This document shows positions 16,752 through 40,379 of a stretch of 64,000 nt of DNA, in pieces. The translations under genes and the position numbers were made by a program. The notes beneath the pieces are model-generated. The model did not search any database. It was not told the DNA's origin and saw only the letters and a program-made list of their open reading frames with translations. The DNA comes from Nocardioides sp. Soil797 (lineage in GTDB: Bacteria; Actinomycetota; Actinomycetes; Propionibacteriales; Nocardioidaceae). The DNA lies in NCBI GenBank assembly GCA_001429555.1, contig LMSR01000014.1, positions 304,766-368,765 on the forward strand, read 5' to 3'. Each line of letters opens with the position of its first letter. Position 1 is the first letter of the stretch.

Positions 16752-16761
16752 CCCACCAGGA

Positions 16762-16796
16762 CGGTGGTTGAGGAGCGAGCGCCCACGTCAACCGAT
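16762..16796. repeat. Palindromic-repeat fragment (GGTGGTTGAGGAGCGAGCG type)
   Basis: The run GGTGGTTGAGGAGCGAGCG at about 16763-16781 is followed by gcccacgtcaacc. It lies between the convergent MoxR-operon end and the LOG gene, reaching past the LOG stop (16788-16790). A related copy sits inside truB (39944-39983). From memory this resembles a dispersed palindromic repeat of Nocardioides-like genomes; here only one arm is clear. Confidence 0.5.
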
Positions 16797-17873
16797 GAGT
16801 CCTGCTGCCTCTTCCACGGTGTCGACCAGGTGCACGGACGACTCCATCGCCCGACCGGCTGCCAGTGAGGTGAGCAACGGCCAGGCCGGCACCGTCCGCG
16901 TCCAGTGCTCGACGCCGACGAGCACCATCGGCGCGACCGAGGACTCGTCGGCGTAGTAGTTCTCGCAGGCGTCCTGGAAGATCTCCTGCACCGTGCCGCC
17001 AGCACCGGGCAGGAACACGATTCCCGCATCACAGACCTCGAGCAGGATCGCCTCGCGGGTGGCGTTGCGGAAGTATTTCGCGATGCTGCTGGCGAAGGCG
17101 TTCGGTGGCTCGTGGCCGTAGTGCCAGGTCGGAATGCCGAGCGATTCACCACCGTCGGGAAAAGCGGCCAACACCTCGAAGGCCACCTTGGCCCAGGCGC
17201 CGATGTCTGGCCTGAAGCTGGGCGTCTCGGCCAGTCTCGCCAATGCTGACTGGAGGTCCTCCTGTCCTCTTGGAGCCAGCCAGGCCCCCAGGTTGGCGGC
17301 CTCCATGGCTCCCGGGCCTCCGCCGGTCGCCACGGTCAGCTCGCCCCCGCGCGCGAGCAGCTGCCCGAGACGCGCCGCTTCGGCGTACGCCGACTCTCCA
17401 CGCTGCAGGGCATGGCCACCCATCACGCCGACGAAGCGCCGCCCCTTGCGGAAGGTGGCGAGTGCCTCGTCGACGGCGTGGTCGTGCAGGGAGCGCACCA
17501 GCGCGGAGTCGGAGTCGGGCGGCAGCTTCGACCACGCGTAGACCCGCGCGTCCAGGCAGGATTCGTAGGGTGTGGTGTCGAAGAGCTCCGTGGGCGAATA
17601 GAGCCCGGAGCGATAGCTGTCGACCGGCACGTCCGGCACCGTGGGGAAGACGATCGCGCCCCGGGTCCGTACGTCGTCAGCCGTGGCCGCGGTCAACTCG
17701 CAGCCCAGGAACAGCGCCCCGGCAACGCGCACACCACCCAGTTCTTCGATGCGCCCGGTCAGGTCGAGCGAGTGCAGGTGCCAGCCGGTCAACGACGTGA
17801 CACCACGCGCGATGCGCCTGTCGAACTCCTCGAGGGTGTCGACCTCGATGACCCGGCCCCGTCGCTTCTGCAT
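16788..17873 (-). CDS. LOG family protein (Rossmann fold nucleotide-binding)
   Basis: A 361-residue protein. The second half is a LOG/lysine-decarboxylase-like Rossmann domain: GGHALQRG, ATGGGPGAMEA and the signature PGAGGTVQE (family consensus PGGxGTxxE, here with Ala at the second Gly). LOG enzymes release the base from cytokinin nucleotides, but many bacterial members have unknown substrates. The first 130 residues are an extra domain common to longer actinobacterial members. It starts 10 bp after bluB, so both share a transcript. Confidence 0.75.
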   Translation of the reverse strand: MQKRRGRVIEVDTLEEFDRRIARGVTSLTGWHLHSLDLTGRIEELGGVRVAGALFLGCELTAATADDVRTRGAIVFPTVPDVPVDSYRSGLYSPTELFDTTPYESCLDARVYAWSKLPPDSDSALVRSLHDHAVDEALATFRKGRRFVGVMGGHALQRGESAYAEAARLGQLLARGGELTVATGGGPGAMEAANLGAWLAPRGQEDLQSALARLAETPSFRPDIGAWAKVAFEVLAAFPDGGESLGIPTWHYGHEPPNAFASSIAKYFRNATREAILLEVCDAGIVFLPGAGGTVQEIFQDACENYYADESSVAPMVLVGVEHWTRTVPAWPLLTSLAAGRAMESSVHLVDTVEEAAGLIG

Positions 17874-24443: not shown

Positions 24444-25787
24444 ATGACCGTGCTCTACTACACGCTCGGCGTGGTGATCTTCGTGGTCGCCATCCTGGTC
24501 TCCATCGCGCTCCACGAGCTCGGCCACATGGTCTGGGCGAAGAAGTTCGGCGGCAAGGTCACCCAGTACTTCGTCGGTTTCGGCAACACCGTGTGGTCGA
24601 AGAAGATCGGTGAGACCGAGTACGGCTTCAAGTCGATCCCGCTCGGTGGGTTCGTGAAGATCGTCGGCATGCTGCCGCCCGAGAAGGACTCCCACGAGAC
24701 CTACCTCGACGAGGACGGCAACGAGGTCGAGCGCCTGCGACAATCCAACACCGGCATGTTCACCCAGCTGATCTCAGACGCCCGTGCCGCGGAGTGGGAG
24801 ACGGTCAAGGCGGAGGACTCCGACCGGCTCTTCTACAAGATGCCCTGGTGGAAGAAGGTCATCGTGATGGGCGCCGGCCCTGCGGTGAACATCGCCATCG
24901 CCTTCGTGATCTTCGGCGCCCTGTTCGCGACGTACGGCAACATCGGCGACCTCCGCACCACCCCGGAGGTCTCCGGGGTCCAGCCCTGCGTCGTGAAGTA
25001 CGAGGACGCTGGCCGCGAGTGCACTGCTGCCGATCCGGAGAGCCCGGCCCAGGCGGCCGGTCTCGAGAAGGGCGACCGGATCGTCTCCTTCAACGGCACC
25101 CGGATCGGTGACGACTGGGAGAAGCTCTCCGACCTGATCCGCGACAACGGAGAGAACAAGGCGGTCATCGTCGTCGATCGCGACGGTGCCGAGAAGACGC
25201 TGACCACTCACACCGTGGTCAGTGACCGCCCGACTTCGACCACCGACGAGACCTTGGAGGCCGTGGGCTTCCTCGGCTTCGTGCCCACCGCAGAGCCGAC
25301 CACCGGCGGATTGGTCTACACCGTCGACACGATGGGCACGATGACCGTGCAGACCGTCGAGGCGCTCGTGCACCTGCCGAGCAAGGTGTGGGGCGTCGGC
25401 AAGGCCATCGTGGGCGTGGAGAAACGTGACCCCGAGGGGCCGATGAGTCTGGTCGGTGGTGGCCGCATCGCCGGTGAGACCGCGGCGCACGACGCGTTCC
25501 CGGTCAAGGAGAAGATGGTGATGCTGCTGATGCTCATCGCCGGCTTCAACTTCTTCATCGGCATGTTCAACTTCGTGCCCCTTCTGCCGCTCGACGGCGG
25601 TCACATCGCAGGCGCGCTCTACGAGGGCCTGCGCCGCGGCTGGGCGAAGCTCCGGCGCCGCCCCGATCCCGGGTACGTCGACGTGGCCAAGCTGCTGCCC
25701 ATCGCCTATGTGGTGGCCAGTGCCTTCCTGGTGATGAGCCTGGTGCTGATCATCGGTGACTTCGTGGTTCCCATCCACCTCACCTGA
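24444..25787 (+). CDS. Site-2 intramembrane metalloprotease (RseP/Rip1-like)
   Basis: A 447-residue membrane protease. HELGH (24-28) in the first helix gives the zinc ligands, and NFVPLLPLDGGH near residue 375 gives the third ligand Asp. One PDZ domain lies between (about 175-270, PAQAAGLEKGDRIVSFNG). Such enzymes cut anti-sigma factors and other membrane proteins after a first outside cut. The extended loop between the first helices is typical of Actinobacteria. It lies between dxr and ispG. Confidence 0.93.
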   Translation: MTVLYYTLGVVIFVVAILVSIALHELGHMVWAKKFGGKVTQYFVGFGNTVWSKKIGETEYGFKSIPLGGFVKIVGMLPPEKDSHETYLDEDGNEVERLRQSNTGMFTQLISDARAAEWETVKAEDSDRLFYKMPWWKKVIVMGAGPAVNIAIAFVIFGALFATYGNIGDLRTTPEVSGVQPCVVKYEDAGRECTAADPESPAQAAGLEKGDRIVSFNGTRIGDDWEKLSDLIRDNGENKAVIVVDRDGAEKTLTTHTVVSDRPTSTTDETLEAVGFLGFVPTAEPTTGGLVYTVDTMGTMTVQTVEALVHLPSKVWGVGKAIVGVEKRDPEGPMSLVGGGRIAGETAAHDAFPVKEKMVMLLMLIAGFNFFIGMFNFVPLLPLDGGHIAGALYEGLRRGWAKLRRRPDPGYVDVAKLLPIAYVVASAFLVMSLVLIIGDFVVPIHLT

Positions 25788-38952: not shown

Positions 38953-39429
38953 ATGGCCAGCCCCCGCGTCCGCAAGATTGCCGACCGCATCAAGATCATC
39001 GTCGCCGAGATGTTGGAGCGGCGCGTCAAGGACCCACGCCTCGGTTTCGTGACCGTCACCGACGTACGCGTCTCCGGCGACAGCCAGCACGCGACCGTCT
39101 TCTACACGGTGCTCGGCGAGGAGGACTCCCTGGCCGGCACCGCGGCCGCCCTCGAGTCGGCGAAGGGCCTGATCCGCTCCGAGGTCGGCAAGCAGCTGGG
39201 CATCCGCCACGTGCCGACGCTGGAGTTCATCCACGACGCACTCCCCGAGACCGCCCGTCAGCTCGACGACGTCCTTGCCCGGGCCCGGCAGCAGGACGAA
39301 CAGGTCGCCGCAACCCGCCTGGGCGCGACGTACGCCGGTGGCGAGGATGCCTACAAGAAGCCGCACGACGACTCCGCCGCGGAGTCCACGGGAGACTCCG
39401 CCGGAGACCCCGACGCGGACGACGAGTGA
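38953..39429 (+). CDS. rbfA: Ribosome-binding factor A
   Basis: A 158-residue 30S maturation factor with the KH-like fold: [33 protein letters not shown] in pieces and [14 protein letters not shown]. The last 40 residues are an acidic tail (about 120-158, [15 protein letters not shown]). ATG 38953 follows GAGAG. Its stop overlaps the truB start. Confidence 0.95.
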
Positions 39430-40379
39430 CCCGAGCAGCTCCACCCGCCGGCCTGGTCGTCGTCGACAAGGCCGGTGGGATGACCTCGCACGACGTGGTC
39501 TCCCGGGTACGTCGTCTGGCCGGCACCCGCAAGGTCGGCCACGCCGGCACACTCGACCCGATGGCGACCGGGGTGCTGGTGCTCGGCATCAACCGAGCCA
39601 CTCGGTTGCTCGGTCACCTGATGTTGACCGAGAAGGGCTACGACGCCACGATCCGCCTCGGTCGCACCACCACCACCGACGACGCCGAGGGCGAGACCAC
39701 CTCGACCACGCCCGCCGGCCAGGTCACCGAGTCGGAGATTCGCTCCGCCCTCGAGCAGTTCGTCGGGGACATCGAGCAGGTGCCGACCGCCGTCTCCGCG
39801 ATCAAGGTCGACGGCAAGCGCGCCTATCAGCGAGTGCGTGACGGGGAGACCGTCGCACTCGAGGCCAGGCCGGTGACGGTGCACGAGATCGTGGTGCACG
39901 GCACCACGGTGGTCGAGGAGGACCCCGAGCACCCTGTGACGACGGTGGTTGAGGAGGTCGCGCAGCGAGCATCACGGAACCACTCCTTCGTCGACGTCCG
40001 GGTCTCCGTGCGTTGCTCGAGCGGCACCTACATCCGCGCCATTGCCCGCGACCTCGGTGCCGCACTCGGAGTCGGTGGCCACCTGACCGCGCTGCGGCGC
40101 ACCGCAGTCGGTGGGTTCGACCTGTCCACGGCCAGGACGCTCGACCAGCTGGGCGACGAGTTCACGGTGGTCCCGATCGCCGACGCGGCACGGGCGACCT
40201 TCCCGGCGTACGAGCTGAGCGACGAGCAGGCCGGTGACGTCCGTGTCGGCCGCAAGCTGCGCATCGGGCTGACCGCGATCACCGCGGTCTTCGCGCCGGA
40301 CGGCGAGTTCCTCGCGCTCTACGAGCCGGTCGTCGAGAACCCCGAGCTGGCCCGCGCCCTCGCCGTCTTCACCGGCTGA
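39426..40379 (+). CDS. truB: tRNA pseudouridine-55 synthase TruB with an in-frame insertion
   Basis: A 317-residue enzyme that makes pseudouridine 55 in tRNA. The catalytic Asp is in [26 protein letters not shown] and [14 protein letters not shown] are also conserved. Between the [10 protein letters not shown] strand and the [10 protein letters not shown] strand there are about 25 extra residues (roughly 159-188, including [15 protein letters not shown]). This part is encoded by a palindromic repeat. The enzyme core is otherwise intact, so it is probably active. GTG 39426 overlaps the rbfA stop. Confidence 0.94.
39944..39983. repeat. Palindromic repeat inserted in truB
   Basis: A 40-bp stretch bounded by GGTGGTT (39944-39950) and AACCAC (39978-39983) reads GGTGGTTGAGGAG, then GCGCAGCGAGC. 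It shares GGTGGTTGAGGAG and GCGAGC with the intergenic copy at 16762. A partial similar stretch (ggtggtcgaggagg) lies just upstream at 39908-39921. Confidence 0.6.

Follow-up and report, generated by a model that had tools for sequence, protein, structure and literature searches.

In the window analysed here, a stretch of 64,000 nucleotides from Nocardioides sp. Soil797, the gene truB contains an extra segment of reading frame that matches a short palindromic repeat. Judging by inspection of the ORFs, its neighbours are presumably infB and rbfA upstream and ribF downstream. The features concerned are as follows (positions are those of the window):

39426..40379, + strand: truB, tRNA pseudouridine(55) synthase; ORF of 317 aa with a GTG start
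39900..39983, + strand: extra segment of TruB, residues about 159-186, between strands 148-164 and 187-197
39942..39985, + strand: full copy of the palindromic repeat in truB, of which 39942-39983 read as 14 residues
39906..39928, + strand: possible remnant of a first copy in truB, left arm GGTGGTCGAGGAG (suggestive only)
16761..16797, + strand: probable truncated intergenic copy of the repeat

By curated model, catalytic motif and fold the ORF at 39426-40379 is a TruB. It scores 228.6 bits against TIGR00431 (cut-off 151.45) and matches the Pfam family TruB_N, the catalytic Asp motif GTLDPMATG is invariant across 56 aligned rows, and the predicted model aligns with M. tuberculosis TruB (1sgv) at Z 30.3 over 260 residues (rmsd 2.1). 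The genome, which is 99.99% complete, holds one truB match, and the reading frame is intact across the insert. Compared with the sister genome G003, the flanks of the insert show 19 nonsynonymous changes over 319 sites and 45 synonymous changes over 119. This clear conservation, read from the sequences, suggests that the enzyme is probably in use.

An earlier note, made from the sequence alone, proposed that about 25 extra residues split two core strands of TruB. Both the alignments and the predicted strands bear this out. The alignment with 1sgv breaks at residues 153-182, where M. tuberculosis has 6 residues against 28 here, and in E. coli TruB (1k8w) 3 residues face 29 of the Nocardioides protein. 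Among 56 aligned TruBs the gap is longest here, at 26 residues; N. limicola follows with 18 and G003 with 14, and the remaining 53 have 0-10. No other site varies as much in length: the range is 0-26, and 0-7 at the next internal site. The Nocardioides TruB has some 22-26 extra residues without counterpart in most relatives, and the insertion edges hold when TruBs of related species are aligned. A loop common to all relatives, which the note had named as evidence against its reading, is not what we see, as most relatives lack the segment. AlphaFold (56 sequences) gives the protein a mean pLDDT of 88.5 with strands at 148-164 and 187-197, and pLDDT drops below 50 at residues 168-183. In this model the insert is probably a floppy tip on a beta-hairpin between the two core strands. 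Folded as RNA, the full copy reaches -16.5 kcal/mol (z -1.6, against mononucleotide shuffles only), and the whole 86-nt insert folds no better than shuffled sequence (z -0.1). Tandem repeats were not found in 39700-40200.

The insert is encoded by a palindromic repeat, as the note had also claimed. A search of the genome with the TruB segment itself returned 10 places besides truB, and the 13-mer GGTGGTTGAGGAG, with at most one mismatch, has 73 matches in the genome against 17 for a reversed control. From an alignment of 17 copies (A1), with the TruB copies left out, we built a covariance model of 44 positions (R1). The repeat consensus begins CGGTGGTT and ends AACCAC; CGTC occurs only internally. 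R1 yields 74 matches at E<=1 in the whole genome, at least 58 of them at E<0.01, a lower bound (150 of 5715 candidates were scored) in which the seed copies match by construction. The TruB copy at 39942-39985, absent from the model, scores 49.9 bits (E 1.1e-7 genome-wide, rank 21) and is the sole significant match in the window (E 1.7e-9). The possible remnant at 39906-39928 agrees with the left arm in 12/13 and reaches only 14.0 bits against R1 (E 0.28 in the window). For the intergenic fragment at 16762, which the note had assigned to the same type, the outcome is mixed: 16761-16783 is identical to the first 23 letters of a full copy (L150), whereas alone the fragment scores 13.2 bits (E 0.42).

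The hairpin was assessed on 13 copies of one subtype, 12 from this genome (TruB included) and one from G003. In these copies 90.7% of the cells of the proposed hairpin are paired, and double changes that preserve pairing occupy 10 cells against 3.8 in shuffles (0/500 as high; slid controls at most 3). Since neither the pairs with a double change (2 against 1.6) nor the pair types (6 against 7.1) are in excess over shuffles, the covariation comes from two positions.

Two minor observations concern similar sequences. A weak, non-significant R1 match (14.3 bits, E 0.23) lies at 25213-25246 of the window, inside ORF 24444-25787, which by inspection we take to encode an M50-type membrane protease. 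Elsewhere in the genome, at G000:C1:118670-118732 (loci L057-L059), the unit of a 25-bp tandem repeat starts with letters nearly identical to the palindrome's left arm.

TruB is not the only protein with a translated repeat. When we looked for others, as the note had advised, 16 of the 58 copies examined proved to be in frame inside genes, TruB included; another 20 have one coding flank, 10 have flanks that code in two different frames and 12 have no coding flank. Gene context was assigned from codon usage, with a score derived from 25 long ORFs in the window and requiring both flanks in the same frame and no stop, a test that misses clusters (for example the VWA and methyltransferase inserts of G003). 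At random control positions in the same loci 62% of 1160 draws pass the same test, which indicates that genes are avoided, not closed: the copies avoid genes, yet about a quarter are placed to be translated. Frame +0, with VVEE in the consensus, is used by 10/16 in-frame copies (P 0.0004 on the assumption that every open frame is chosen equally often), and 4/16 are read from the other strand, all in one frame. Among the 16 are a neighbouring pair in a single gene (L198) and a 35-nt match that is weak (L209).

NCBIfam or Pfam models supplied the names of the 15 host genes, in some cases with a score below the cut-off because the ORF runs off the locus. They encode PabB, an Lhr-type helicase, isoleucyl-tRNA synthetase (IleRS), TruB, an adenylylsulfate-kinase fusion, HrpA, CobBC, CofGH, a DnaE-type polymerase, a VWA protein, a methyltransferase, CobIJ (two copies), BenC (after the last domain), a biotin carboxylase and one protein without a family match. 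By coordinates, many inserts fall between family-model domains. We did not retain the idea that copies in genes are more diverged, the difference in median score being weak (43.1 against 49.5 bits, Mann-Whitney p 0.14); split into halves by rank, in-gene copies number 4/29 against 12/29 (Fisher p 0.04). In-gene copies also occur elsewhere, with 5/28 copies or clusters in G003 and 2/64 in-frame loci in four other genomes (G147 1/17, G058 0/18, G438 0/14, G040 1/15), counts that come from the best-scoring copies and so cannot be set beside those of this genome.

The copies at loci L179, L168, L153, L183, L197, L169 and L152 are close to the N-terminal end of an ORF; these may be part of a leader or may precede the true start. 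Another observation concerns L199 3-2666 (-), where BenC, an FCD-type domain and the beginning of BenD all lie in a single open frame of 888 aa, with the repeat just after BenC. G003 has a similar long frame of 943 aa. The frame in L199 may be a fusion, or the genes may merely share a frame.

For comparison with related species, 10 and 8 relatives were searched with the segments that surround 18 copies, and the fetched loci were aligned; the comparison of inserts with G003 leaves out RibD_C and GH25. The 15-residue insert of IleRS is absent in 7/9 relatives aligned (G003, G023, G041, G050, G097, G115 and G126). G130 has its own insert there, with four units of DPVVEEGAQ plus a 55-bit repeat copy, so that the copies at L166 1501-1546 (this genome) and L280 188-231 (G130) occupy the same site in two species; G199 carries another insert at that place. 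A clean insert in the N-terminal part of an alpha/beta hydrolase (outside the 16) and a double copy in the L181 protein are both absent in G003. HrpA is shorter in G041, G050, G097 and G199, and longer in G003, where it has a 53.6-bit copy. The VWA protein is shorter in G041, G050 and G097, as are CobIJ and CobBC in several relatives. In G003 the VWA protein holds a pair of oppositely oriented copies (62.4 and 41.1 bits), and the methyltransferase (L306 1306-1561), for which G003 is the only relative aligned, has an in-frame tandem array of repeat copies that adds 66 residues. The inserts of CobBC, APS kinase and BenC have counterparts in G003 of 55.8, 42.1 and 56.2 bits. Weaker copies are found in the DnaE-type and CofGH loops of G130 (34.3 and 30.4 bits), and PabB of G147 has an in-frame copy in the same stretch as in this genome. 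For NrdJ, CofGH and PabB the region varies in all aligned species, which alone is no proof of insertion.

At the TruB site itself, G003 is the nearest of the 215 genomes of the genus searched (520.7 bits by TruB; next 439), and the two proteins are 86% identical. The truB gene of G003 has an in-frame repeat copy of 57.7 bits against R1 after the same His codon. In the nucleotide alignment this copy faces the second TruB copy, and the first remnant occurs only in this genome. An assembly frameshift, the other objection foreseen in the note, finds no backing: the frame is intact, and the in-frame copy of G003 at the same place speaks against it. We scanned 115 TruB loci with R1 (30 + 80 + 5, some species being counted twice). 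Apart from this genome and G003, 113/115 gave no significant match: none in the other 28 of the set of 30, 0/80 in the mostly Nocardioides set (best E 0.03, upstream of the gene) and 0/5 in the further loci. N. limicola (L141) has an 18-residue loop at the same TruB site, the DNA of which is faintly like a decayed copy. We do not count this loop as the repeat: there is no significant R1 match and the folding is unremarkable (z -0.7).

The inserts shared with G003 also inform on constraint. Pooled over TruB, CobBC, APS kinase and BenC, pN/pS is 1.00, a value based on only about 44 synonymous sites, against 0.28 in flanking codons. Synonymous divergence is 0.20 in the elements against 0.41 in the flanks, which leaves room for independent insertion or constraint at the DNA level; some of these shared inserts may therefore be independent arrivals, or held by such constraint.

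The repeat is widespread within the genus. At E<=1e-3, R1 matches occur in at least 48/59 Nocardioides genomes (at most 107 candidates scored per genome). A class-wide draw, with at most 21 candidates scored per genome, gives at E<=1e-4 at least 25/296 genomes and at least 8/114 genera; 17/25 are in Nocardioidaceae. Among nine comparison relatives, five have 0 matches, G199 has 2, G050 23, G041 120 and G130 129 (at most 150 scored). Of the marks expected of a MITE, inverted arms are present, and target-site duplication is not visible in the few comparisons between this genome and G003. Y1_Tnp (PF01797), the transposase linked to REP sequences, was found in 0/59 Nocardioides genomes and in 5/14 controls, which leaves a RAYT-driven REP unsupported. 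Two further candidates were set aside. A 2.4-kb span between copies in G003, considered as an insertion sequence ended by repeat arms, has no transposase-like ORF by eye. The idea that the ten 'CRISPR' predictions without Cas in N. dokdonensis (PMC5526307) are arrays of the repeat was dropped, as R1 gives 0 matches in G097, for which 150 of 7338 candidates were scored.

Rickettsia provides the best-known in-frame palindromes, and some other bacteria have been listed as well. According to PMC2229807 and PMC3733652, the Rickettsia palindromic elements (RPE) occur both between genes and in frame inside conserved proteins, with truB among the targets in R. conorii (PMC3733652), and a guanylate kinase bearing an RPE is translated and active (PMC2229807). 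RPE differ in length (105-146 bp in PMC2229807, against about 44 bp here), in sequence and in host, which here belongs to the Actinomycetota; RPE-4 and RPE-6 end in CGTC according to PMC3733652, whereas the Nocardioides repeat does not. The repeat is thus of the RPE type in its placement, in and outside genes, and is not an RPE by sequence, length or host. With the GTAG/CGTC REP sequences, as described in PMC3733652, it shares the form of short high-copy hairpins, in dimers and groups and in some cases inside ORFs. It is not one of them, because it has neither the terminal GTAG or CGTC tag nor a Y1 transposase in the 59 genomes.

PMC3733652 also reports palindromic repeats within truB of S. 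maltophilia, E. lithoralis, S. alaskensis and R. conorii, and its list of genes interrupted by REP includes dnaE2 and genes for a tRNA synthetase and an RNA helicase. The same gene classes (truB, DnaE-type, tRNA synthetase, RNA helicase) recur in Nocardioides. The earlier note had held that a case in a tRNA-modifying enzyme would be notable; the in-frame insert is real, and these are its precedents in truB. Judging by titles in the references of PMC2229807, palindromic repeats with coding use have also been described in Wolbachia and Methanocaldococcus. Nocardioides or Actinobacteria do not occur in the main text of PMC3733652, Nocardioides is not mentioned in the available text of PMC12306157, and among the open-licence papers listed in literature searches we saw none that deals with this repeat or with translated repeats of Actinobacteria. 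As far as searched, the repeat family and the phylum are new, and the kind of phenomenon is already known.

Taking these results together, we consider it very probable that the TruB loop is a translated copy of a dispersed palindromic repeat that is selfish, tolerated in loops and drifting without constraint from the protein; translation, mobility, neutrality for TruB activity and disorder in the cell are parts of this reading that we infer. The hairpin repeat family of Nocardioidaceae, of about 44 nt, would spread by a route that seemingly needs no resident Y1 (RAYT) transposase. A copy in a gene would survive only if its length keeps the frame, the frame is free of stops and the site is a permissive loop or linker, and each surviving copy would add about 14 hydrophilic, probably disordered residues. 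In TruB the copy would sit at the tip of the beta-hairpin between two core strands. The inserted segment would then drift under little protein constraint, and could lengthen through the arrival of a second copy or through tandem amplification.

It might be argued that recruitment has taken place, and that the new loop, or else a hairpin in the truB mRNA, is of use to the cell, for instance in tuning tRNA binding or truB translation. A copy in two species with 86% identical TruB, the single frame favoured across genes (10/16) and some pairing covariation in the family would agree with this. We nevertheless regard recruitment as unlikely, given a pN/pS near 1 in the pooled inserts (for TruB alone 0.33 against 0.42 per site), the weak folding of the TruB element, the low AlphaFold confidence and the shorter TruB loop of other aligned relatives. 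Ordinary variation in loop length with a chance resemblance to the repeat has far less to commend it, and we give it almost no weight: the genome-wide E value of the TruB copy comes from a model free of TruB, and the 57.7-bit match of G003 stands in the same place, even though this loop is the most length-variable of the 56 TruBs and N. limicola has 18 residues there without a significant match. That truB is decaying, or its frame an assembly artefact, has nothing in its favour among our results and is hardly credible in view of the single match in a nearly complete genome, the retained catalytic motif, flanks under purifying selection against G003 and a sister gene that is also in frame.

The reading of the TruB loop as a translated, tolerated repeat copy can be widened, though here we are tentative and the wider claim is open to considerable doubt: translated palindromes would be a general, convergent source of new protein loops, a small set of core enzymes (TruB, DnaE-type polymerase, tRNA synthetases, RNA helicases) would be hit repeatedly by repeat families that are unrelated and belong to different phyla, even the same short stretches would be hit in different species, and a non-RAYT mobiliser of Actinobacteria would have to exist. 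Stretches that hold copies both here and in another species are the IleRS site and, less strongly, the loops of the DnaE-type polymerase and CofGH (all three in G130), together with PabB (G147); the VWA protein holds different elements here and in G003. If true, insertion hot spots would mark the most permissive loops of the proteome. Nocardioides offers many natural in-frame insertions in core enzymes, apparently of different ages, for which relatives without the inserts form matched pairs. Such pairs allow asking how far a peptide is tolerated, whether it eventually becomes useful, and what copies a hairpin repeat without RAYT.

A last observation concerns a locus of G003 (L233 1501-1860), where six repeat copies lie 63 nt apart, five of them with identical model score. 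This array is probably the product of recent tandem amplification.
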